This document shows, piece by piece, positions 15,035-64,000 of a DNA stretch of 64,000 bases (position 1 is its first letter; every line of letters begins with the position of its first letter). Source of the stretch: Histomonas meleagridis (lineage: Eukaryota; Parabasalia; Tritrichomonadida; Dientamoebidae); NCBI GenBank assembly GCA_020186115.1, contig WSYJ01000186.1, forward strand, positions 2,959,501 through 3,023,500, read 5' to 3'. The translations under genes were made by a program, and so were the position numbers. The notes below the pieces were generated by a model, which was not told the DNA's origin, ran no database searches, and saw nothing but the letters and a program-made list of their open reading frames with translations.

Positions 15035-15768
15035 ATTTTTCCATTCAAAAAGTGACTGTTTTTATTAAATGATATCTATCTAATTAAAATATTTTAAATA
15101 TATCAATGGCTAAAGTGTTGCTCATGAAATCGTTGATTATATAATAAATGCAATTACAAATTTTATCTTAATTTTATTTTTTTTATATTTGCTAAACATT
15201 TGAGATCTGCATAGCCTTGTGATAACATGATATCATCGAGCTATACACTGTAATATATGTATTAATTAATTAATTATTTATTTATTCGATAACAATTTTA
15301 CAAAATAAATTATTCAATTCTATATATTTTATCAAATGGTTATTTTATAGAATTATATAAAATTATTTATGAGTATCTATTCGATAATTATTTATAAATA
15401 TCAGATATCATAAAAAACATCTGTTAAACTATTTGTCAGTATGTCTGGTATAAATATATACAAAATAAAATAAAAAAAATTGTAAAAAAAAAAATATCTC
15501 ATTCTCATTACAAAACATTAACAAAATTTAAACAAATAGAAATAAAAAAACAGTTAAACAATCATTTAGACGATATACCCAAAATCAAATTTTGTTTATG
15601 ATTAAATTTCGAATATTATTTTTTCTGTGCTTGAAAAGAGCGAAATGATAAAAAGTAATAAAAACTGGTTCATTTTTTTTCAATTTTGAGGCGGATCACT
15701 TTTTAAGTATAATATTCGAAAATTCTTCTTTTAATTTCATATCGTTCATAGGTTCCAATCAATTGACA
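15035..15768. other. AT-rich intergenic region before the ankyrin locus
   Basis: Very AT-rich DNA with ATTA/TTTA runs (for example the TTAATTAATTAATTATTTATTTATTC region near 15258-15285, written here only as a run of ATTA units). No gene was seen. TCATA at about 15748 precedes the ATG at 15769. Confidence 0.4.
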
Positions 15769-18642
15769 ATGAAGTCTGTGATAAACAAAGATCACAATGA
15801 CTTACAATTTTTACAATCATTGGAACAAATCATATTCAATTTGAATAAAAATAATATCGATTTATCAACTAAATTAACATTGAATTTATTTAATGAATAT
15901 TTCCCATTTTCTTTTCTTCTTGTTATCAGCAATTTTGTTTGTTCTGCTTTTGATTCTGGGCATATAAAAGAAAACATATTATTTAGCTATTTAAAAGGAA
16001 TCGAAATAAAGCAAAAAGAACATGTTCTTATATTTATTAATCGATTTTTTTTGTAAATATTTAAGGAAATTAAATGCAAACGAATCGTTACATAATTATC
16101 TTCTTGAAAAAATGATTGAAGAGAAAATTATAAAACCAAATTTTGTAAAAACGTTAGATACTTTATATTTTGCACATTATAAAACAAGTGAAGAAATCGA
16201 TGAACTTCTAAAATTTGGTTTTCATGGATTCGAAGGCCAATTTTACAGAAATATCGACGAATTATCAAAAGACAATTGGAAACTTCATAAGCAATTAATT
16301 TCAGATGGAATTAATCCAAATGAAATTTTGAAAATTCTTCGAAATGACAAAATCGAAAAACTAATGGAAATATCAGCTCAAAGTAATTTTGATTATAATC
16401 AAGGAATTGAACCATCTGTTTATGAAAGATGTTCATTTATTAATTATTATGTTGGATTAATTGATTACGCAGCATTTTTTGGATCGATTAAATGTTTTAA
16501 ATATTTGTTAATAAATGGAGCAAATGTTGAATATACGCTTGAAAATGCTGTTGCAGGAGGTAATTTAGAAATTATTCATTTATGTGAACAAAATAATGCA
16601 TCATATAAATACATATATGAAACAGCAATTGAATTTCATCGTAATGAAATTTTTCATTATTTTTATGATAATAAAGTGATCGAAATTGAAGACCTAACAG
16701 GATTAGGAAAAATATGTATTCAATACAATAACTATGAAATTTTTTCGTTTTTAAAAGAAGAAGGAATGGAAATTAATGAAAAAATTATTAAAGCAGCAGC
16801 GAAATTAGGAAATATTTACTTTATAGAAAATTATTCAATATATCCAAAAGATTTATTGATATATGCAGTAAAATCAGGTAACACTGAACTTGTTGAATTA
16901 CTTCTCAAACAAAAAGAAATCGATGTTAATGCAAAAAATAATTTTTTTAAAAAATTTATGAATTTTTTTCATGTTATTATTGACACCATTAATTTGTGCT
17001 TCCGAATATGGTTTCATTGATATTGTTAAAATACTTATTGAACATAAAGATATTAAAATTAATTTAAAAAATGTTTATAAAAAATCTTTAAAATTTCTTT
17101 TGAAAATTTCTGTCCATGATTTAAAATTCGGATTTCATTTCTATTTTTTATAACAGCAATTTATAAAGCATCTGAAAGTAAGAATTATGATATTGTTCTT
17201 TTACTACTTAAAAATAAAAAAATTTTTGAGGATTTATTATTTTTTTCTGTTATGATGTTTATTTGTATTTTTTCAAATTTATTTTTTCTATTTATTGTTA
17301 TTTTGCATTACATAAAAAAGTTCTTCTAAATGCATCTAAAGATGGTAAACTTAAAGTTATTCAACAAATTTTAAAACACGGAAAAATTGATGTTAATGTA
17401 AAAAATATTTTTCTTTTATATTTAAAACTTATTAGTATTTTTTGACGTTTGTAACTAATTTTTGATTTTTGTTTAAATTTTTTAAAACGCCATTGATGTT
17501 TGCAGCAGAAAATGGTCATTTAAAAGTTGTTCAATATTTGTTAAATATGAAGTCAATAGTTTATAATATGAAAGACATTTTTTAATAGTTTTTAAAGTTT
17601 ACTTTAAGAAATTGAAATTTGAATTTTTTATTTGGTGTTTATTCTCTATGTTTACTACAGCTCTTATGTATGCATCTCTTAATGGTCAATTTGATATAGT
17701 TAAATTGCTTCTTGAACAACCAGGAATTGATATATTTGCAAAGAATGAAAATGGAATATGTATCAAATACTTTATTCATCATTTGCGCTAGCGTGTCTAT
17801 CTGGAAATATTAAAATTGTTAAATTACTTCAAAGTATCAAAGGTATGAATCTTTATATCAATAATTTTCGTTTTTTATATTTCATGTTTATTTATAATTT
17901 ATAAGCAAGAAATTTTAAGCTGCATGAGTGCGAAAAGTAAAGAAATGATTATTTTTTTATTCAAGCAAAAGAATTTTAACACATACGTTTATTTAAATTT
18001 TTTGTAGTTCAATTTAACTTTTTGATGTTTATAATATTTTTTTGGAATATATTTATTATATTTGGGATAGCATTAATATATGCTACTAAGAATATTAAAG
18101 TTGAGCTTGCAAAATTTCTAATTGAAAAACTTCGGATCAATTATAATGCAAAAAATATTTATTCATTTTAATTCGAATTTATTTTAATGATATGATATTT
18201 ATTTTATTAATTTGGGATTTATTTTAATTATTACGTACAGCACTTATGTATGCGTCTCTATATAATCAAATTGAAATTGTTAAATTACTTCTTGAACAAA
18301 AAGAAATAGATATTAATAATAAAGATATTTATACATTTTAATTCTAACTTATTTTAATAATATGATATTTATTTTATTAATTTGGGATTTATTTTAATTA
18401 TTACGTACAGCACTTATGTATGCATCTCAATCTAATCGTATTGAAATTGTTAAATTATTTCTCCAACAAAAAGATATTGATGTTAATGCAAAAGATATTT
18501 TTTTATATTAATTTATATATATTGAATTTAATTCGTTTTTATTTTATTAATTCGGAGTTCATTTTGATCAATTTGGACAGCATGGAATTATGCAAATAAC
18601 CATGGTTTCATTGAAATAGGTAAAATTATTTGTGATCATTGA
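15769..18642 (+). pseudogene. DUF3447-type ankyrin gene (locus A), frameshifted and split into modules
   Basis: The N-terminal domain (from the ATG at 15769) resembles the 59.7-kb ankyrin gene: LEQIIFNLN, then a helical region, YFAHY, DNWKLHKQLI, the DYNQGIEPSVYERCSF stretch, LIDYAAFFGSIKCFKYLL and EIIHLCEQN. The frame slips at an 8-T run (16046-16053), because the partner gene reads through a KYLR.LN segment that lies in two frames here. From 16850 ankyrin repeats follow. After 16939 each repeat is separated from the next by a segment that breaks the frame. Modules at 16983, 17153, 17317, 17487, 17657, 18067, 18237, 18407 and 18577 are recognisable. The last (TAWNYANNHGF) ends in TGA at 18640-18642. 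Whether this is a pseudogene or a gene with unusual introns cannot be settled from sequence. Confidence 0.7.
16940..18576 (+). repeat. 170-nt ankyrin module + spacer array (locus A)
   Basis: Spacers of exactly 80 nt lie at 17073-17152, 17407-17486, 17577-17656, 18157-18236, 18327-18406 and 18497-18576. The exceptions are 43 nt (16940-16982) and 74 nt (17243-17316), and one fused junction near 17747. Spacers begin RTTTWT directly after the NAKN/NAKD-type codons and end directly before the Thr codon of TAL/TPL. A TTYGG or TTTGA core occupies spacer positions 55-59. The spacers at 18157 and 18327 are near-identical, while the others differ widely in sequence. Confidence 0.85.
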
Positions 18643-28085: not shown

Positions 28086-28269
28086 GAGAATGTGTGTGTT
28101 TCGTTTCAATTTCTAATTGAATATGAATTTAATGTTCATAGAAGAATACAATTAGAATGTTTCTGAAGTAAATTTACTATTTCCGTGTAACTTTTTTGTT
28201 GGGTGATCTGAATTGCTGTCAAATATTGTTAAAACATATTCCAAATAATTAAAACATATATTAAATTAT

Positions 28270-29335
28270 TAAAACATATTTTAAATTATTCGAATGAATA
28301 TTTTTTGCATTAACATCAATTCCTTTATCTAAAAGTAATTTTAATATTTCTATATTATTGTTTCTAACTGTTATATGAAGTGCTGTTTCAAATTATTAAA
28401 ACATATTTTAAATTATTAAAACATATATAAAATTATTAAAACATATTCTAAATTATTAAAAAATATTCTAAATTATTAAAAAATATTTCAAATTATTAAA
28501 AAATATTTCAAATTATTCAAATGAATATTTTTTGCATTAACATCAATTCCTTTATCTAAAAGTAATTTTGCTATTTCTATATTATTATTTCTAACTGATA
28601 TATGAAGTGCTGTATTAAATAATTTAAATAATTTCCAAATATTGTTTTGAAATATCAAATTATTTAAAGAAATATTGAATAAAACAAATAAAAATCTTTA
28701 GCATCAATTCCTTCTTGTTCAAGAAGTAATTTAATTATTTCTATATTACCATTAGAAGATGCTGACATAAGTGCTGTTTAAAAATATATTTAGTAATTAC
28801 CATTTATTGTTTTATAACAAAAAATTATTAAAACGAATTATAAACAAAGTAAATCAACATTCTGTGCATTAATATCAATTCCTTCTTGTTTAAGAAGATA
28901 TTTAACAAGTTCAATATTTTTTGACTCTGCTGCGTATATCAAAATATCATCTGGTATTTTGTTTGCTTTAATAAAATGTTTTACTAAATAGAAATTCCCA
29001 AGGTTTGCAAGCATATCAATAATTCTATCATTAATTTTTACTCCTTTTTCTTGTAAAAAGGCAAAAATTTCATTATTCCCATTCATAATACTTAAAATAA
29101 CCAAATCTTTTCTGTCTAGAACTTCAACAATTTCATTTTCATAAAGATATTTAAAGACGTCATTTTTATATAAAATAATAGCTGTTTCATATGCATCAAT
29201 AAATGATGAGTGATTTTGTTCACATAAATGAATGATTTCTTCCGCATACACAGAATTACCAAATATCACACTTAACATTAACTGATATAAACCACTAAAG
29301 TTCTTCGTAGCTTTCATAAATCCAAACACACACAC
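28270..29335 (-). pseudogene. 5'-truncated DUF3447 ankyrin gene (locus C)
   Basis: From 29335 the frame has an unrelated short leader and then joins family sequence at EIIHLCEQNHSSF, the point reached about two-thirds through the DUF3447 region of the other copies. The N-terminal domain is therefore missing. It runs to LLKQEGIDINAQN at 28859, where the frame hits a stop. Further ankyrin modules lie at 28694-28777, 28527-28613 and about 28300-28390. Spacers are 81 nt (28778-28858) and exactly 80 nt (28614-28693). The spacer at 28391-28526 is expanded by AATTATTAAAACATATT-type short repeats. Confidence 0.65.
28391..28526 (-). repeat. Short tandem AAATTATTAAAAMATATT repeats inside an ankyrin spacer
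   Basis: About seven copies of a 17-18-bp AT unit are stacked here, replacing the usual 80-nt spacer. A smaller set lies at 28240-28290. Confidence 0.7.
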
Positions 29336-37258: not shown

Positions 37259-38850
37259 ATGTCTTTGGAACAATTTCCAAAGTCTGCAATTGATCAAATA
37301 CAATTATCAGCTCGACTTCAAGATGATTTAATCTCAATTTCTTCCACGAACTATAACGCAAAATTGGAATCAATTCTCAAAAATAATTTTGATGATCAAA
37401 CTATTGATACTTTTATTCATGATATTTTAATAGCCACAGACTTTCGACCAAAATCAGCTTCTCTTTATGCTCAACTTATTTATGATTTATCACAAAATCA
37501 TCAAATAAACAAATTAATAAATTTGCTTAAACAAATATTTTTTACTCCTTATCAAGTTCTTTCGACTAAGTATATACAAGAGGAGGCTGTATCTCAAGCA
37601 CTTTTAATGAGAAAATGTTATGAACTTAATTTAATTTCGTTTGATGAAATTTTTGAATTTTCCAAATTACTTAAAAGCTTTAAGCGAAAATATTGTATTC
37701 AACTATCATTTATTTATGTATATTTTATGTATGAATTCACTCAGAAAGATCCATCATTTAGTCTTACTCTTTGTATATTTTGTGAACACAAAATGAAATC
37801 TTTTCAAGTTCGCGAATATTTTGAAGCCATTCTTGGCAAGCGAACAACACTCTGCAACAACAAAGAGCTGTGGGAAGAGCACATCAAAATAGGGTACCCC
37901 AAAAATTCAATTGCCGGCGCTATCGTTCTTGACAATTTTGAACTTCTTCAAGATATTTGTTCTTCCCCTGATTTTGATTATAATCAAAAGATTTTCCCAT
38001 CACTATTTGATCCACATTCACTTAAACATAAAGAATCAACGTTATTACAATTTTCAGCAATTCATGGATCAATTCAATGTTTTAAATATTTATATTTAAA
38101 TGGAAGTCAAATGATTCCAAAGCGTTTTACTGATTGGACTATTACACAATTTGCTACTGCAGGAGGAAATCTTGAGATAATTCATATACTTGATCAAAAT
38201 GATATAAGTTTTGATAAATGTCTTGAAATTTCGTCGATATTTCATCAACATGAAATCTTTGATTGGTTAATTGATACCAAAGGAAAAGATATAAATAGAG
38301 AGAAAGTAATTTTTAAATGTATTGAATCTAATAACATCATTGATTTTCTTAAATGTATAAAATGTGGTAATGATATTAATATGAGAGATGAAAACATTTG
38401 TTTTTATTATTTTTAAGACTGCCTTTGTTTTATGCTGTTATGAATAATAAAATAGAAATCCTTAAATTCATTTTAGCGAGCAATAAAATAGATGTGAATT
38501 TAACAAATTCTTTGGGTTGGACTGCTTTGCATTATGCTGCTGCACTTGGATTAAATAAATCTGCTGAATTGTTATTAGAAAATGATTTAATAAATCCAAA
38601 TATACAAGCAACTCAAAAGAAAGAAGAAACACCAATTTATGTTGCTGCTAGAAATGGATATAAAGAAATAGTTCAAATGATTCTGAATTCAGAAAAATTT
38701 GATCCTAACTTTAATTCACGTTCATTGATTTGTTTTAAGTTAGTTTTTGTGTTTCGGTGGTTTATTCTTTTTTTTTCAAATGCATTAAAAGTTGCAGCTA
38801 TGAATGAAAATAAAGAAATTGTGGATATGTTAAGTTCTTTTAAACAATAA
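37259..38850 (+). CDS. DUF3447-type ankyrin protein (locus E), frame broken at a 23-nt spacer
   Basis: The first 385 codons (to a TAA at 38414-38416) contain a helical N-terminal domain and the DUF3447-like region (DYNQKIFPSLFDPHS, LLQFSAIHGSIQCFKYLYLNG, AGGNLEIIHILDQND). After NMRDEN the frame ends. The next ankyrin repeat starts at 38419 in another frame and runs through four repeats to TAA at 38848-38850. The 23-nt segment 38396-38418 sits exactly where locus A and B spacers sit. A later spacer of 57 nt (38722-38778) is open in frame and encodes a hydrophobic stretch (VFVFRWFILFFS). With the 23-nt segment removed the protein would be about 520 residues. It is a possible gene if spliced, otherwise a pseudogene. 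Confidence 0.6.
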
Positions 38851-39955: not shown

Positions 39956-40104
39956 ACCGTCGAGTAAAACCGCTCTTTGTTCACTAAAACCGTGTAATTT
40001 TTTTTTTTGGTAGGATGAACGATGATTTTCTGTTCAAATTTTGAGCTCCGATGTTCCATCTGACAGTTTGATTGAAAAATTTCGAAAAAGGCAATGAGTT
40101 CACA
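39956..40104 (+). promoter_or_regulatory. Subtilase promoter: three ACCG-type sites and TCACA initiator
   Basis: ACCGTC (39956-39961), ACCGCTC (39969-39975) and ACCGTG (39989-39994) cluster 110-150 bases upstream of the ATG. TCACA at 40100-40104 abuts the ATG at 40104. Confidence 0.4.
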
Positions 40105-43100
40105 TGATGTTTTTGCTGTTCCTGCCTCTTACGATAAGTAATAAGTATGTATTCCCAACTGCAAGAGGAAAGCAAATCATTTTTGATTCTAGCGAACGAA
40201 AAAAAACTCTTTCCTTTCATAATGCATGGGCATATCTTTATTTTCCAACAGAAGTACCCATTACTCAATTACAAGATCATGGAATCAAGTTCACCAAGCG
40301 TGACATGGTCAATAAAAATGTGTATAAACTTTATTTAACACCATCTCAAATTTCATATTTAGAAAGCATCAACGTAATGGTTAGTCTAATTCAACCGAAT
40401 GATAAGATTATATCACCAGAGCAAATCAAAACAGCTGAATATTTATTCGTTACTGGCATTTTTGATCAAATTCCCAAATCAAAATACTTCAAAGTCACCT
40501 CTAGCTCGCCAGAAATCCTTATTATTGAGACAAACCAGCCTGAGGAAGCTTCCAAATATTTAAGTCAAATTGATTCAGTTGAATCAATAACCAAACATAC
40601 ATTACCTAAGATCAATAATAACATGGCAGCTGGATTTACTCAACATAACTCTGAACAAACCACCTTCGACTATGGTGTTGTTCCCACACTTCCACGATAT
40701 TTCGAAGATAAAGGCATCAGTGGTAAGAATCAAACGATTGCAATGATAGACACACTCATTGATTATTATCACACTATGTTTTATGATCCTAATGTCCAAG
40801 TTACATATGGAAAATTTATGCCAACACATCGTAAACTTTTATATGTTTACAATGATTTTGGTTACAATGAACAAAGTTATTATCAAAACGTTGGGATTGG
40901 TGAACATGGGACACATGTAGCAGGCACCATTGCAGGTAGTTCATATGATTCATCGAGTGAAATCAGCAAATTTAATGGTGTTGCGCCTGATACGAAACTT
41001 ATGTATTTAGGTCATTTACATGCAGTACATAATCCATTTTTATCCAATCTATATCAAATGGCACAAATTTTAGCCGAAGGTAATGCATGTGCATTTTCTA
41101 ATTCATGGGGCTATGGTGTTAATAATCCGAACTTTGCGATTAATTCTGCTCTTGATAATTTAATATTTACTACTAAAGCAGGTGAAAATTGTTTATGTAT
41201 CTTTGCATCAGGTAATGATGGATCCCAAAAATATTTTTCGGCTTCATCACCTTCCACTTGTAAAAACATATTAGCAGTTGCAGCATCTGATCAAATATAT
41301 AATTTTAATAATTATAAAGTAACTATTAATAATAATATCGAATTATATATACCAGAAGATAAAAATAATCAACCTGATGGCTCATTACATAATGCGCCAA
41401 ATGAAATATATTTATCACGATTAAATGACTTTAGTACTGATCATCACACAACTAAAATTTTATATTTTGATTTAGACACATTATCAATGTTAAATGATCC
41501 GCAATCAATAATCGAAATTAATTATAATATTTCTCTTCAATCTTCATATTATGAACTTGCTGCTTTTCTTCTTGATATAACAAAAGAAGATTTTGATAAG
41601 TATAGTATTTATTTCACATCTTTATCAGTCCAAATATTATATACAAATAAAACAAATAGTTTAGCATCATTAATTGGTACAACATTAACTGTTAATAGAA
41701 AATATGATTCACTTCAAAGTAAATTATTAACTGATATTAACAAAGCTTCATTTTCTTCAACAGGTCCATCATTTATAGGTTTAATTAAACCAGATGTAAT
41801 GGCACCAGGCGTATTTATCTATAGTGCTAAATCATTAACTACACCGACACCTAATCATGGATCAGATAACGCAAATTATAATGAACATTTAAAGATTAAT
41901 CAAGGTACATCAATGGCTACACCTAATGTTGCAGGTATTACAGCATTAATTTCTGATTATTTCTCAAATGGTTATCATTTAAATACAAAACTTAATTTTA
42001 ATTCATTATTATCGAAATCAATTTTAATAGCATCTGCTAATAAACCAGATGGAAGTAAGGCACCAGATTATTTAATGGGCCATGGTATGATTGATATTTC
42101 GAATGTATTACCATTTGAAGGTTCTAATTTCGGATTACGATTTACACGAAATATTAAAATGTATTCAGAAGATTATCATCATATAGGAAAAATTACTATC
42201 ACAAATACAAATGTACCATTAAGAATAGTATTATGTTCACTTGACGCAGCTTCTAATGCAGATTCATTAATACCGATTATTTATGATTTAGATTTAATTG
42301 TTATATCACCATCAAAGAAAATATATATTGGAAATGATCGTAAGGATGAAACAGAACATTTCACATTAAATGAGAAAGTTATAATTGATATTGATGAATT
42401 AGAAATTGGTGATTATGAAATTCATGTTATAACTAATAATGAAATTCAAGAAGAAAATGGTGTTCCATATATAGTTACTGTAGTAGGTCCATTTACTAAT
42501 AGTGACACAACAACAAATCCATTCTATATCACAATGACAAACACTACAAATTGTATTCCATCAACTAAAGGTAAATGTAATGAAAATGGAAGATTAACAT
42601 GTAATACAGGTTATACTGGTCAATTATGTGAGAAAGAAATCCAAGAAATTAAATCATATGATAATATTAATGATATTTATATTACAATACCACCACATTC
42701 TATGCAATATTATCATATTAATTCTAATGCAAATTATGATAAGTTAATGTTAACAATAATTTCATTATCAAGTCAAAACGCTTATTCATTTATATATGAA
42801 ACTGGTTCACCAGAGAATTATTTAATAGCATTATCATTAAATGGATCACAAATTCCACGACTTATTGATCCTAAATATGATTCAACATATACATCAAGAG
42901 TTATCTTTGATACTGAATTATTATATCCGACAATTAGTTCGAATGAAGAACATGACATATTAATATTTAACAATTTCCCTGAAGAAACTAAATTCATGTT
43001 TTATTCATTAAATGCACCGAATGAAGGACCAATTTGTATCTGTAATAATAATGAATGTTCCAACAAAGAAATTTGCGTAACACAAAATGTTTATAAGAAT

Positions 43101-43922
43101 ATGAATGTATTATATGGCTTAAGACAATATGTAAATAACAGATTAATTTATATTGACGAAAATGTTCAAATCGATTCATTGTTCTTAGCATTCTTTAATG
43201 TTGCTTTACATTCATTAAATCAGAATACAAAATATAATGTAACAATTACATCACTTGATAATTTAACACGTAATTATCCACAAGGATTCAGTCTAAATCT
43301 CGTAAACTTGAATTTGTTATTTGATATTGATTCCAATTTACAAATTAATTTCAAAACATTAAATATATCGAAATCGTTAGTTAACGCAAATAATGTTCAA
43401 TTAAATGTTAACGAGTTAACAAGTGATTTTGATTCATATAATGATAATATTATGAATCCAACTACAGTAATAATGTATGACTCATCAGATCCAATTCCTT
43501 TGATCAAAGTTTATAGTACACATTTTGAATTCATAAGTAAAAATAACATAACTAAAAAAGTGCCATTCAATGCTTTAACGGAATTTATCACCGATAGAGA
43601 AAGTACTGAAAATTTGAAAATTGTTAAAGGTGATGACAAGGAAATTATAACAGAACATAAGGTCTTTATAATATTTACTAATCCAAATGGTTATAGTTGT
43701 GATATAGATGAAAAACTGAAAAGTATAGTTTACATATCAACTATTGGTGGTGATGATAAAGGTCTGAGTGATGGCGAAATCGCTGCAATAGTAATAGTCT
43801 GCATCGTTGTGGTGGTGGCTGCTGTAGTTGCGACTTATTTCTTGGTGATCAGGAAGAGGAGAAATAATTACACAAAAACTTTGGATTCTTCTGACAATAA
43901 AAGAGAGAAATATACTCCGTAA
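40104..43922 (+). CDS. Membrane-anchored subtilisin-like serine protease (S8 family)
   Basis: The 1272-residue type I membrane protein starts with a signal peptide (MMFLLFLPLTIS). A prodomain-like region (about 20-190) precedes the S8 catalytic domain. The triad is Asp216 in IAMIDTLID, His268 in GEHGTHVAGT and Ser603 in GTSMATPNVAG, with oxyanion Asn371 in FASGNDGS. A long insertion lies between the Asn and Ser motifs (about 400-560). Beta-rich regions follow, with an EGF-like Cys cluster (CNENGRLTCNTGYTGQLC, about 830), a single transmembrane helix (AAIVIVCIVVVVAAVVATYFLVI) and a basic tail. Trichomonad homologues such as TvSUB1 act at the cell surface. A second family member lies at 62.8-64 kb. 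Confidence 0.95.
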   Translation: MMFLLFLPLTISNKYVFPTARGKQIIFDSSERKKTLSFHNAWAYLYFPTEVPITQLQDHGIKFTKRDMVNKNVYKLYLTPSQISYLESINVMVSLIQPNDKIISPEQIKTAEYLFVTGIFDQIPKSKYFKVTSSSPEILIIETNQPEEASKYLSQIDSVESITKHTLPKINNNMAAGFTQHNSEQTTFDYGVVPTLPRYFEDKGISGKNQTIAMIDTLIDYYHTMFYDPNVQVTYGKFMPTHRKLLYVYNDFGYNEQSYYQNVGIGEHGTHVAGTIAGSSYDSSSEISKFNGVAPDTKLMYLGHLHAVHNPFLSNLYQMAQILAEGNACAFSNSWGYGVNNPNFAINSALDNLIFTTKAGENCLCIFASGNDGSQKYFSASSPSTCKNILAVAASDQIYNFNNYKVTINNNIELYIPEDKNNQPDGSLHNAPNEIYLSRLNDFSTDHHTTKILYFDLDTLSMLNDPQSIIEINYNISLQSSYYELAAFLLDITKEDFDKYSIYFTSLSVQILYTNKTNSLASLIGTTLTVNRKYDSLQSKLLTDINKASFSSTGPSFIGLIKPDVMAPGVFIYSAKSLTTPTPNHGSDNANYNEHLKINQGTSMATPNVAGITALISDYFSNGYHLNTKLNFNSLLSKSILIASANKPDGSKAPDYLMGHGMIDISNVLPFEGSNFGLRFTRNIKMYSEDYHHIGKITITNTNVPLRIVLCSLDAASNADSLIPIIYDLDLIVISPSKKIYIGNDRKDETEHFTLNEKVIIDIDELEIGDYEIHVITNNEIQEENGVPYIVTVVGPFTNSDTTTNPFYITMTNTTNCIPSTKGKCNENGRLTCNTGYTGQLCEKEIQEIKSYDNINDIYITIPPHSMQYYHINSNANYDKLMLTIISLSSQNAYSFIYETGSPENYLIALSLNGSQIPRLIDPKYDSTYTSRVIFDTELLYPTISSNEEHDILIFNNFPEETKFMFYSLNAPNEGPICICNNNECSNKEICVTQNVYKNMNVLYGLRQYVNNRLIYIDENVQIDSLFLAFFNVALHSLNQNTKYNVTITSLDNLTRNYPQGFSLNLVNLNLLFDIDSNLQINFKTLNISKSLVNANNVQLNVNELTSDFDSYNDNIMNPTTVIMYDSSDPIPLIKVYSTHFEFISKNNITKKVPFNALTEFITDRESTENLKIVKGDDKEIITEHKVFIIFTNPNGYSCDIDEKLKSIVYISTIGGDDKGLSDGEIAAIVIVCIVVVVAAVVATYFLVIRKRRNNYTKTLDSSDNKREKYTP

Positions 43923-57516: not shown

Positions 57517-57528
57517 TTCTTTTTGTAT

Positions 57529-59754
57529 TTAATCTATTGCACCCTTCTCACGAAGTAATTCAATTATTTCAGTATAATCATTATCCTCTGCACATTTTAG
57601 TGCTGTTTCAAATATTTTACACAAATTCCAAACATAAATTTGAAACATAAAATTTTAGCAATAAATTTTAAACAAAATATTTAAATATCTTTAGCATTGA
57701 TGTCAATTTGTTTTTGTTTAATGAGTAATTTAACTAATTCAATTTGACCATTTTCTTGTAAAGTAATGAGAGCTGTTTTAAATAATATAAATAATTTCCA
57801 AATATTATTTTGAAATATCAAATTATTAAAATGAATTTTAAATAAAACAAATCAATATTTTTAGCATTAATATCAATTCCTTTTTGTTCAAGAAGTAATT
57901 TAACTATTTCAATATATTTTTTTTCAGATGCAATTATAAGTGTTGTTTTAAATAATATAAATAATTTCCAAATATTATTTTAAAATATCAAATTATTAAA
58001 ATGAATTTTAAATAAAACAAATCAATATTTTTAGCATTAATATCAATTCCTTCTTGTTCAAGAAGTAATTTAACTATTTCTGTATGACCTTTTGAAGATG
58101 CATAAATAAGTGCTGTTTCAAATAATATAAATAATTTCCAAATATTATTTGGAAATATCAAATTATTAAAATGAATTTTAAATAAAACAAATCAATATTT
58201 TTAGCATTAACATCAATTCCTTTTTGTTCAAGAAGTAATTTAACTATTTCTGTATTACCTTTTACAGATGCTAAAATAAGTGCTGTCTCAAATAACATAA
58301 ATAAATTTCAAATATTATTTTGAAATATCAAATTATTAAAATGAATTTTAAATAAAACAAATAAATATCTTTAGCTTTAATATCAATTCCTTTTTGTTCA
58401 AGAAGTAATTTAACTATTTCTGTATGACCATTTGAAGATGCAATTATAAGTGCTGTTTTAAATAATTTAAATAATTTCCAAATATTATTTTGAAATATCA
58501 AATTATTAAAATAAATATAAAACAAAACAAATCAATATTTTTAGCATTAATATCAATTCCTTCTTGTTCAAGAAGTAATTTAACTATTTCTGTATGACCA
58601 TTTGAAGATGCAATTATAAGTGCTGTTTTAAATAATTTAAATAATTTCCAAATATTATTTTGAAATATTAAAATATTCAAATAAATTTTATTTTTAGCGT
58701 TAATATCAATTTCTTTTTGTTTAAGTAAAAATAAAAATAGTTTGATATTTATAATGTCTTTTTGGACAAATAAATACAAATTGTTAAGATTATTGGTAAA
58801 GAAATAAAATGATTCTTGAAATTTTCCTAATTTATTTTCATAAAGATAATGAAAAATATCATTTTTATGAAATTTCATTGCTGCTTCATATGCACCTTCA
58901 AATGTTGAATGATTTTGTTCACATAAATGAATAATCTCGAGATTTTCACCTGCAATTGCATATTTTCCTGTATTTTTTACTTTTGCACCATTCATAAGTA
59001 AATATTTAAAACAATTAATTGATCCAAAAAATGCTGCATAATCAATTAATGTAACATCTTCTTTATTAATAAATGAACATCTTTCATAAAGTGAAGGTTC
59101 AATTGTTTGATTAAAATTAAAATTTGTTTGTGATGATATTTCTTGAAGTTTTTTAATATCATCACTTCGAATTACTGTTGATATTTTATTCGGATTATGC
59201 CCGAATTCAATATATTTCTTATGAAGTTCCCAATTATTCTTTTCAAGATCTTTTATATTTTGAATGAAATAAAGAAAAAATGGTATGATATTTATTGTCT
59301 TTAATTGGTTTAATGCTTCATTCGATAAATAATGCGCAAAATAAAAAGTTTTCATGCATAAGATAAAATTTGTATTAATCATATTTAATTCAATCATTTT
59401 TCCTAGTAAAAAATAAGATTCTTCAGTATTTAAGTATCGAAGATACTTCGAAAATGTATGAATTATTTCGTATTTTTTATTGAATTCTTTTTCTTTATTC
59501 TCAAGTTCTTCCATGAATTTAAGATATATATGAGAATCTTTAATTTGTGATTGAAATAATGAATAAGTAAATTTGCATATAACTATATTGAAATCATACG
59601 AGATATTGTTATGAGATAAATCAATAATCGATTTAATTGTTTCTTGTATATTGTCTTCTCTTAGATTAAAAATAATTTCTTCAAGTGATTCATAGAATGC
59701 TCCAAAGCCAACATTAGAACAATTAAGATGTTCTATTGTATTGTTGTTATCCAT
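57529..59754 (-). CDS. DUF3447-type ankyrin gene split into 170-nt modules (locus B)
   Basis: From the ATG at 59754 a 418-codon frame covers the family N-terminus (FYESLEEIIFNLRED), the DUF3447-like region (FNQTIEPSLYERCSF, YAAFFGSINCFKYLLMNG, EIIHLCEQNHSTF) and the first ankyrin modules. A 63-nt spacer (58627-58689) is read through in frame. The frame stops at 58498 inside the next spacer. Seven modules follow, at 58537-58626, 58367-58456, 58197-58286, 58027-58116, 57857-57946, 57687-57776 and 57529-57606. All are open in the ankyrin frame, and the last ends LLREKGAID followed by TAA at 57529-57531. A clean terminal repeat and six uniform spacers favour a working gene whose spacers are removed, but splice sites are not canonical. 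Confidence 0.6.
57607..58689 (-). repeat. 170-nt ankyrin module + 80-nt spacer array (locus B)
   Basis: Module starts on the plus strand are 57517 (equivalent), 57687, 57857, 58027, 58197, 58367 and 58537, each exactly 170 apart. The spacers are 57607-57686, 57777-57856, 57947-58026, 58117-58196, 58287-58366 and 58457-58536, all 80 nt. On the coding strand each begins ATTGAT or a close variant and carries TTTGG at positions 55-59, or a near match. Confidence 0.9.
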
Positions 59755-62754: not shown

Positions 62755-64000
62755 TTATTTTGAAAATGAATCTGTTTTTTGTTTTTTTCTTTTGAGAATA
62801 AAAATTAAAATGATTAATATTATTGTGATTAGAATAAATATAATTGTTGAAGTAAATAATGTTATAACAATTACTTTCATTATTTTTGATGGTTCTTCTT
62901 CATAACTTGTATCATAAACAATTCTTATATTTAGTTCTATATCATTTGAAAGATAATTACAAATTGCAAACGATACAATTTTATCCGTTATGACCGAATT
63001 ATAAAAAGTGACTTTTTGGTTATTTTCACTAAATTCATAGTACATTTGATATTCACTTTGATAAATACTATTAAAACCTTCTTTAAAGAACATCCCAATA
63101 TTTTCATAAAAATTTATGTTTGATTCAAATTCTATTGTGAAATTATCAAAATCTGGTTTTAATATAACATATGTATAATTCATGGAATTTTTGTGTATAA
63201 TAATCTTTTGCATTTTTTGACTTAATTTTAGTGAGGTCATTTGACATTTGATTCCTATTTTTGGCATTTCACATTTTCTTTTTTGATACTTAATGATATC
63301 AAATGTGTCAGTATTCAAAATAGGACCTACAATGCATAATGAGCATTTTGTGGTATTTCCAACAATATGGCTATTTCTAACTAAGTGAACTTCATGAGTT
63401 CCAGAAACGATTTCATTTGGATATAGTAATATTTTTTCGGTTGTTAGAAAATGTTCTTCAATATTATCTTCATGATGATTTCCAAAAATTGCTTCACCAT
63501 TTGGTTTCAATAAATACATATCAATGTCAATATTTAAAGAATGTGTACATGTAATTATTGGTCGATCATAAAAAGCCATAGCAATTCTTAGTTTTTGATA
63601 ATTTGTATTTTTCTTTACTTCGAATTTTATAACATATTCACTATTTGTATCAATTTCTATTGAATCAAATACTTTAATATTGTTGGAAAATGTTAATATA
63701 TTTGATAAGTTCACGATGCCATAACCTGAATTGCAATTTGGTGCCTTTTGTTTTGGGTTAAGAGGTTCTGTAGATGCTATTATTAAAGCTCTTAAAAGAT
63801 TTGCTGTTATTTTTACAATGTTTTTATTATTCTTTATTCCAGTTGGATAATATCCTTCATCAAAATATTGTCTAATTAAAGCTGCTCCTCCTGCTACTAA
63901 TGGTGTTGACATTGAAGTTCCAGACTTTATAATTAATTTATTGTTTTTAAGATTTTTACACATATCTTCAATTTTTTTGTTATTCATAATATTTGCTGAT
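62755..64000 (-). CDS. Subtilisin-like membrane protease, C-terminal part (runs off the window)
   Basis: The frame is open to the window edge and holds the end of an S8 catalytic domain, with the nucleophile Ser in KSGTSMSTPLVAGGAALIRQYF. Next comes a beta-rich P-domain-like region (GYGIVNLSNIL, DIDMYLLKPNG), then a single transmembrane helix (VIVITLFTSTIIFILITIILIILIF, about 380-402) and a short Lys-rich tail (KRKKQKTD). It aligns in order with the 40-kb subtilase but lacks its EGF-like Cys cluster. The Asp and His of the triad lie beyond the window. Confidence 0.9.
   Translation of the reverse strand, partial: SANIMNNKKIEDMCKNLKNNKLIIKSGTSMSTPLVAGGAALIRQYFDEGYYPTGIKNNKNIVKITANLLRALIIASTEPLNPKQKAPNCNSGYGIVNLSNILTFSNNIKVFDSIEIDTNSEYVIKFEVKKNTNYQKLRIAMAFYDRPIITCTHSLNIDIDMYLLKPNGEAIFGNHHEDNIEEHFLTTEKILLYPNEIVSGTHEVHLVRNSHIVGNTTKCSLCIVGPILNTDTFDIIKYQKRKCEMPKIGIKCQMTSLKLSQKMQKIIIHKNSMNYTYVILKPDFDNFTIEFESNINFYENIGMFFKEGFNSIYQSEYQMYYEFSENNQKVTFYNSVITDKIVSFAICNYLSNDIELNIRIVYDTSYEEEPSKIMKVIVITLFTSTIIFILITIILIILIFILKRKKQKTDSFSK

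Follow-up and report, generated by a model that had tools for sequence, protein, structure and literature searches.

Introduction

In Stentor coeruleus, 92.8% of the annotated introns are 15 nt long and 7.2% are 16 nt long, with an AU content of 75.6%, and they mostly show a GU start, an AG end and a branch adenosine, with a spliceosome that copes with introns of 15 nt (PMC9505925). Trichomonas vaginalis has 24 type B introns in its genome, which are T-rich and 23–25 nt long, begin with GT and end with AG, and carry a CTAA branch site joined directly to the 3' end; no transcript with several introns is described, and one of the three intron-bearing ankyrin genes contains an intron of type B (PMC12316389). 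In the mitochondria of Magnusiomyces capitatus, many short inserts in coding sequences are skipped in expression (PMC5009743). For Histomonas meleagridis, the genome paper describes introns as scarce, with at most one per gene, and contains no mention of ankyrin in its main text (PMC8529796).

The locus considered here lies in a stretch of 64,000 nt of H. meleagridis DNA (contig WSYJ01000186.1; hereafter, the window) and contains an ankyrin array, the spacers of which are built of 17-nt elements and single codons. As compared to what is described for the Stentor introns, these elements are likewise AU-rich and of near-fixed length, but they are 17 nt long, 0 of 526 present GT...AG ends, and up to four or more of them stand one codon apart. 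With the T. vaginalis type B introns, as described, they share the parabasalid host, a short and T-rich sequence, a narrow length range and the occurrence in an ankyrin gene, whereas the GT/AG ends, the fused CTAA and the single intron per transcript are absent here. The Magnusiomyces inserts are mitochondrial, while the elements here are nuclear, have a fixed length of 17 nt and are flanked by mostly unmatched codons. Ciliate IESs are short, AT-rich, TA-bounded sequences with exact borders that are cut from the DNA of the somatic nucleus, whereas TA borders are not general in the elements considered here. In a literature search that covered mostly papers outside subscription, no description of such elements was found.

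Results

Layout of the locus

The gene occupies complement 57529–59754, with its start at 59754 and its stop codon at 57529–57531. Its N-terminal block is intact and lies in an ORF of 418 aa (58498–59754, minus strand; P0001) which, as it stands, scores 27.3 bits for DUF3447 (cut-off 26.9) and 48.5 bits for Ank in Pfam. The first coding block (58687–59754), as delimited by the ORF and Pfam, contains the ATG, the DUF3447-type N-terminal domain and the beginning of the ankyrin region with its first repeat, up to ...DINAKN-K. This block runs into a 63-nt spacer (58627–58689), in which the first element is absent and its codon, AAA (58687–58689), is kept, followed by elements at 58670–58686, 58650–58666 and 58630–58646, the last two of which are separated by GGA. 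As this spacer is in frame, the upstream ORF continues across it and module 1 and meets its stop in the spacer that follows.

Seven ankyrin modules are found on the minus strand, with starts exactly 170 nt apart in all six intervals. Module 1 (58537–58626; 90 nt, 30 codons) is followed by an 80-nt spacer at 58457–58536, with elements at 58520–58536, 58500–58516, 58480–58496 and 58460–58476 and the codons Y-D-G-K. Module 2 (58367–58456) precedes the 80-nt spacer 58287–58366 (elements 58350–58366, 58330–58346, 58310–58326 and 58290–58306; codons K-D-E-E), and module 3 (58197–58286) precedes the 80-nt spacer 58117–58196 (58180–58196, 58160–58176, 58140–58156 and 58120–58136; K-D-G-E). After module 4 (58027–58116), the 80-nt spacer at 57947–58026 holds elements at 58010–58026, 57990–58006, 57970–57986 and 57950–57966, and after module 5 (57857–57946), that at 57777–57856 holds elements at 57840–57856, 57820–57836, 57800–57816 and 57780–57796, both with the codons K-D-G-K. 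Module 6 (57687–57776) is followed by an 80-nt spacer at 57607–57686 (57670–57686, 57650–57666, 57630–57646 and 57610–57626; K-Y-G-E), where the sequence has diverged and the layout is unchanged. The last module and the C-terminal cap, TALKCAEDNDYTEIIELLREKGAID-stop, lie at 57529–57606.

The preliminary description of this locus had claimed an exact 170-nt period and modules that are all open in the ankyrin frame up to a normal LLREKGAID-stop cap. Both were confirmed, with TRF reporting an array at 57548–58690 of period 170 (6.7 copies, 87% matches, 0% indels, score 1561). Its set of 80-nt spacers applies to six of them, but a seventh, the in-frame spacer of 63 nt, precedes the first module. 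The lack of stops and indels that it had pointed out is real at the locus, but elsewhere in our sample 10 of 480 modules bear a stop, and one array (L010) presents many variants of 1–2 nt.

As for the surroundings, the intergenic segment 60100–60400 contains, by eye, many loosely repeated TCATTTAAT-like words. The window also encodes an ornithine decarboxylase-like protein (Pfam) and two subtilase-family genes, at 40104–43922 (plus strand) and 62755–63987 (minus strand).

Family size and sample

The 170-nt pattern is not local, as further arrays were matched across the genome. With the DNA of this array as query, at least 137 matches were found in the 43.28-Mb assembly, and two other spacer-bearing arrays of the window gave at least 204 and at least 182. 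These counts should be referred to as lower bounds, as 40 candidate regions were scored per query out of 1539–1751 first-look candidates. An N-terminal domain relative gave at least 104 genome matches (103 of 2539 candidates scored). By our own count, six of the N-terminal matches listed contain an internal stop. Most of the N-terminal relatives found elsewhere in the genome have an intact ORF, with about 380–470 codons open in most listed cases.

Our statistics are based on 51 sequences (the window, L009–L028 and L029–L058; 310 kb with some overlap). It should be noted that this sample was picked by similarity to two query arrays and is, therefore, biased towards both and represents only part of the family. 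Removal of exact-sequence duplicates left 480 unique module-spacer-module units, a few of which are not array spacers (e.g., a coding stretch of an ankyrin gene near 38500). An 80-nt spacer is found in 385 units, with 316 distinct 80-nt spacers (42 effective after weighting). The loci in the sample yielded 1844 parsed elements, of which 526 are distinct.

Composition of the spacer

The 80-nt spacer has the structure [17]xxx[17]xxx[17]GGA[17]xxx, in which the element is typically ATTT-N9-ATTT and AT-rich. Even 33 such spacers that are less than 75% alike pairwise still share a 20-nt rhythm, with T runs at positions 2–4, 15–17, 22–24, 35–37, 42–44, 55–57, 62–64 and 75–77. The triplets at 18–20, 38–40, 58–60 and 78–80 contain 0 stops in 1264 codons over the 316 distinct spacers, while column-wise shuffling of the letters gave a mean of 62.1 (range 45–79, 200 shuffles), and the triplets one base upstream of the four slots contain 251, 129, 37 and 216 stops. 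Gly occupies the third slot in 270 of the 316 spacers; weighted, GGN reaches 26.6 of 41.9 at this slot and at most 4.1 at any other position. The fourth slot is K, E, N or R in 210 of 316, and the second is Y, D or N in 195. The slot codons are the ankyrin loop x-D-G-x ahead of T-A-L. Stop-free, Gly-bearing slots and the rhythm of T runs together thus resolve the spacer into [17] codon [17] codon [17] Gly [17] codon. Straight read-through of the spacer was rejected, with 164, 1284 and 87 stops in frames 0, 1 and 2 (282 units).

A parser restricted to 17-nt elements and codons resolved 383 of the 385 80-nt spacers into four elements and four codons, which should be considered a consistency check rather than an independent test, as the 80-nt spacers themselves had served to derive its element profile. 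For 2 of the 480 spacers, no parse without a stop was possible. Many spacers of 79, 81 and 82 nt could be parsed only by taking an element as codons, and most of these (16 of 26) come from a single array, L010. This array (G000:C72:128000-137900) has about 40 units with many one-base variants in the length of A runs inside elements, and four of its modules bear stops; the length variants may reflect decay or homopolymer sequencing error.

Of the preliminary description, the period of 170 thus stands, but its division into 90 coding and 80 spacer nucleotides becomes 102 and 68, since 12 of the 80 nt in each such spacer have the properties of codons. What it had treated as one 80-nt unit consists of four 17-nt elements parted by single codons that belong to the protein, and the fixed length with loose sequence that it had found unusual arises because the spacer is 4 × 17 + 4 × 3 nt.

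Natural variants of the spacer

As judged from the parsed sequences, spacer length variants fix the element borders. Spacers of 63 nt (16 of 480, from nine sequences including this gene) contain three elements and four codons; with E for element and c for codon, 12 parse as cEcEcEc, where the first element is missing and its codon is kept, and four as EccEcEc. Spacers of 83 nt (14 of 480, five of them in L016) contain one extra codon, which stands either in a slot or ahead of the first element, although in one of them, from L010, three one-base changes may account for the length. Three spacers of 100 nt each comprise five elements and five codons, one of the two 120-nt spacers comprises six and six (the other being the coding stretch near 38500), and one spacer of 140 nt comprises seven and seven.

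Other loci of the window were read in the same manner. An array at 16930–18590 (plus strand; L029) has diverged spacers, several of exactly 80 nt, and a 29-nt spacer at 17747–17775 in which three contiguous loop codons are followed by an element (17756–17772) and the fourth codon. The ankyrin gene at about 15710–18640 (plus strand) has an N-terminal frame change at 15995–16055, close to eight consecutive T, where either a sequencing error or a genuine break may be responsible. The array at 28221–28950 (minus strand) contains a 140-nt spacer of seven elements and seven codons and one of 80 nt, along with spacers of 74 and 81 nt without a clean parse. In another DUF3447/ankyrin gene (ORF from 37259; DUF3447 28.4 bits), a single element, ATTTGTTTTTATTATTT, was read directly at 38396–38412 (plus strand), flanked by MRDEN and LRLPLFYAV. 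The gene also has a loop free of elements (NSLGWTALHYA). In its last loop, 60 nt at 38719–38778 (plus strand) resemble elements and codons with Gly, and our hand parse of this stretch puts TAA in one slot.

The joined reading

With the 27 elements left out, the gene reads as a protein of 588 residues with 34-residue repeats (…DINAKN-KDGK-TAL…) and a normal cap. The loops then become KNGK, YDGK, KDEE, KDGE, KDGK, KDGK and KYGE. This reading scores 290.6 bits for Ank_2, as compared to 172.8 bits when whole spacers are dropped instead, and 205.5 bits for Ank, placing it among ankyrin repeats (Pfam Ank clan); its DUF3447 score is 26.6 bits, just under the cut-off of 26.9. For the array alone, the 17-nt reading reaches 184.9 bits for Ank, as compared to 160.5–167.6 bits for seven other excision schemes, and is also top for Ank_3, Ank_4, Ank_5 and Ank_KRIT1. 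Ank_2 does not separate the readings of the array, with 178.2 bits against 180.9 and 178.5 bits for two single-excision schemes.

Coding selection on the modules

In the 282 full units, frame 0 of the module contains 3 stops in 8405 codons, although column composition alone predicts 127. Frames 1 and 2 deviate little from their predictions, with 436 stops against 464 expected and 1588 against 1531 expected, respectively. At codons 5 and 8, where 47 and 59 stops are expected, 1 and 0 were observed.

The substitution pattern of the modules was analyzed in 244 nearest-neighbor pairs of units from the same array, with elements differing at no more than 4 of 68 nt. The differences between elements served as the mutation spectrum for expected codon changes. 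Nonsense differences number 4 against 113 expected and synonymous differences 247 against 111 expected, while single-base non-synonymous differences number 977 against 1100 expected, with 785 multi-base codon changes. Outside the variable codons, non-synonymous changes were halved (434 against 879 expected), whereas at variable codons and slots they were more than doubled (543 against 222 expected). These numbers should be referred to with care, as the pairs share some dependence and units may be mixed by gene conversion. Since selection is seen between units with near-identical elements, it points to a protein under selection after the elements were in place.

Variation is strongest at module codons 5, 8, 9 and 11 (L009–L028 and the window), positions at which side chains are exposed in ankyrin repeats. 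The variable surface codons suggest diversifying selection in a large ankyrin repertoire.

Element ends and occurrence outside the arrays

The 526 distinct elements have a mean GC content of 9.3%. When pooled, position 1 is R in 84%, positions 2–4 are T in 81–86%, and the 3' end is A(71%)-T-T-T; in slot 4, the element starts with AA in 276 of 316. Among the distinct parsed elements, 0 of 526 present GT...AG ends and none ends in AG, the dominant 3' end being TT. The trichomonad branch/3' motif (ACTAAC-type fused to ACACAG), searched as an exact 12-mer, occurs 3 times in 43 Mb, and its reversed control occurs 2 times. Being very short, narrow in length and AU-rich, the elements share the properties of tiny introns, but as far as their sequence tells they match none of the intron types compared.

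Outside ankyrin arrays, a profile scan of 160 kb of flanks and window (less than 1% of the genome) revealed no excess of elements, with 8 sites for 17 nt, equal to those for 11, 13, 14 and 16 nt. An ORF-joining scan of the window outside arrays gave six sites for 17 nt, including one that overlaps the element at 38396–38412, while other lengths not divisible by three gave 0 to 16. The value for 17 nt lies within this spread, and for the DNA scanned 17-nt inserts as general introns were rejected. By eye, no elements were seen in the N-terminal domain, and its rare frame breaks are not consistent with 17-nt inserts.

Relatives in other sequence collections

One scan of viral contigs yielded no relative. 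Of 16 metagenome relatives examined at the protein level, seven (P0061, P0073, P0083, P0086, P0100, P0110 and P0123) end, by a stop or the contig end, no more than two residues from the expected start of the first element. The Gly slot was reachable in three metagenome proteins, with G in register in P0099 and P0124 (the latter of the 83-nt class) and W in P0113. P0129, from a metagenome and presumably trichomonad, has a related N-terminal domain and ankyrin loops with G, but runs through its ankyrin loops in one continuous reading frame, without elements. The best match of P0083 in the H. meleagridis genome is 55%, in a search that may miss matches. Among 26 N-terminal homologues, P0127 (421 aa, named caskin 1,2) alone carries the name H. 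meleagridis; in the genome of the window it finds at best 69% identity, which suggests that the genome search may miss relatives. P0127 has a proline-rich stretch.

Discussion

The sequence statistics show where the elements begin and end, that the codons lying between them are coding, and that selection acted on the protein in units already bearing elements. Since the elements contain stops and frame changes, while the codons between them are sense codons, the elements would not reach the protein. In this respect, coding selection, reading frame and element-loss variants give strong support to the preliminary description, which had proposed removal or bypassing of the spacers, but its 80-nt unit should be replaced by the 17-nt element.

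We propose that the locus is a functional ankyrin-repeat gene. In each loop tip, which comprises some four codons (typically K-D-G-K), as many as four AT-rich elements, each exactly 17 nt long, interrupt the coding sequence in phase 0, where one codon ends and the next begins. Each element would be omitted individually, with the single codons between them retained. Such omission could proceed by precise excision from RNA, making the elements intron-like, with ends near RTTT...ATTT rather than GT...AG, and candidates for the machinery would be a spliceosome with strong modifications or an independent route by endonuclease and ligase. Signals at both ends, together with the constant length, suggest recognition. 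As GT...AG ends are lacking, the trichomonad motif is not enriched and matched-codon hopping is unsupported, excision from RNA is favored, and on these sequence grounds we consider individual excision in a functional gene to be probable. Against it, the loose ends are weak as splice sites, and introns of 17 nt with exons of 3 nt are hard to imagine for a spliceosome. The scarcity of introns in the genome paper (PMC8529796), the stops in 10 of 480 modules, the length variants of L010, the badly parsing spacers, the Ank_2 scores and the absence of enrichment outside ankyrin arrays in 160 kb also weigh against it. Its serious rivals are relic arrays and translational bypassing.

According to the first of these rivals, the elements invaded repeats that were once functional, only the N-terminal ORF of about 400 aa is made, and the coding look of the arrays is inherited or maintained by gene conversion. 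The openness of the N-terminal ORFs over 380–470 codons in most listed cases agrees with such a history, as do the presence of most elements in tandem-duplicated units, the stops in some modules and the length drift in L010. Selection after insertion (4 nonsense differences where 113 are expected) and the stop-free slot codons (0 of 1264) speak against it. In addition, one exact element-free form of the loop, the only form searched, is absent from the whole genome, so that an element-free donor is not evident. We thus regard relic arrays as unlikely.

In the case of translational bypassing, the mRNA would keep the elements and ribosomes would hop over each 17 nt, which accounts for phase 0 and for omission without splice signals. 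For Magnusiomyces, 81 mitochondrial bypasses are reported, several of them without perfectly matched codons (PMC5009743). In the present arrays, however, the triplet before the gap varies (GAT, AAA, TAT, GGA and others) while the element mostly ends in TT, so that take-off and landing codons are mostly unmatched, and this gene alone would need 27 hops, with three or four in each loop and a single codon between neighbors. Bypassing is, therefore, quite improbable in our opinion. Slippery -1 frameshifting was rejected separately; a heptamer resembling U UUA AAA exists in the consensus, but unit positions 108 and 110 vary in many copies.

An ordinary intron, made of the whole 80-nt spacer or of about 68–77 nt in one piece, would require a single excision instead of four, which is simpler; the AT-rich sequence of the spacer agrees with it, and two single-excision schemes score slightly higher for Ank_2. 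Moreover, T. vaginalis type A introns span 56–196 nt (PMC12316389). Nonetheless, the internal codons at 18–20, 38–40 and 58–60 behave as coding, elements are missing singly while codons are kept, and single excision leaves loops that lack Gly (e.g., ILFK and IDFK), with five of the six ankyrin families giving it a lower score. An in-frame GT...AG pair is absent at the spacer ends, as checked by hand, and a hand search revealed no AT-AC or GT-AG pair in frame at conserved places, so that these schemes were rejected as well. A single intron is thus very hard to sustain. Elimination at the DNA level in an expressed copy, as for ciliate IESs, can practically be set aside. The elements are indeed short, AT-rich and of fixed length, with T|A at both borders at some slot 1 sites. 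Such borders are, however, missing from most sites of slots 3 and 4, as in 252 of 316 spacers GGA stands between these two slots; the one exact element-free form was not found in the genome, and no second nucleus is known in H. meleagridis.

Excision of single elements from RNA can be taken one step further. If the elements occur only in the loops of one large, hypervariable family of ankyrin genes, a second route of RNA excision, next to ordinary splicing, may serve this one family. Thousands of 17-nt elements without GT-AG ends would then be excised from mRNA, leaving one-codon exons, and only in ankyrin loops; the genome-wide number is extrapolated from the 1844 parsed elements (526 distinct). 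We put forward this wider proposal tentatively, as one that could prove right but on which we hold some doubt.

If the elements are excised, they would form an intron-like class, the ends, size and single-codon exons of which lie outside the splicing rules compared here, with dozens per gene. Such a class would test the lower size of intron and exon, as well as non-spliceosomal excision from mRNA in a nucleus. For the organism itself, our results suggest that the current annotation lacks or truncates much of a large family of ankyrin genes, as the sole homologue named as H. meleagridis among the 26, P0127, has no Pfam ankyrin domain.
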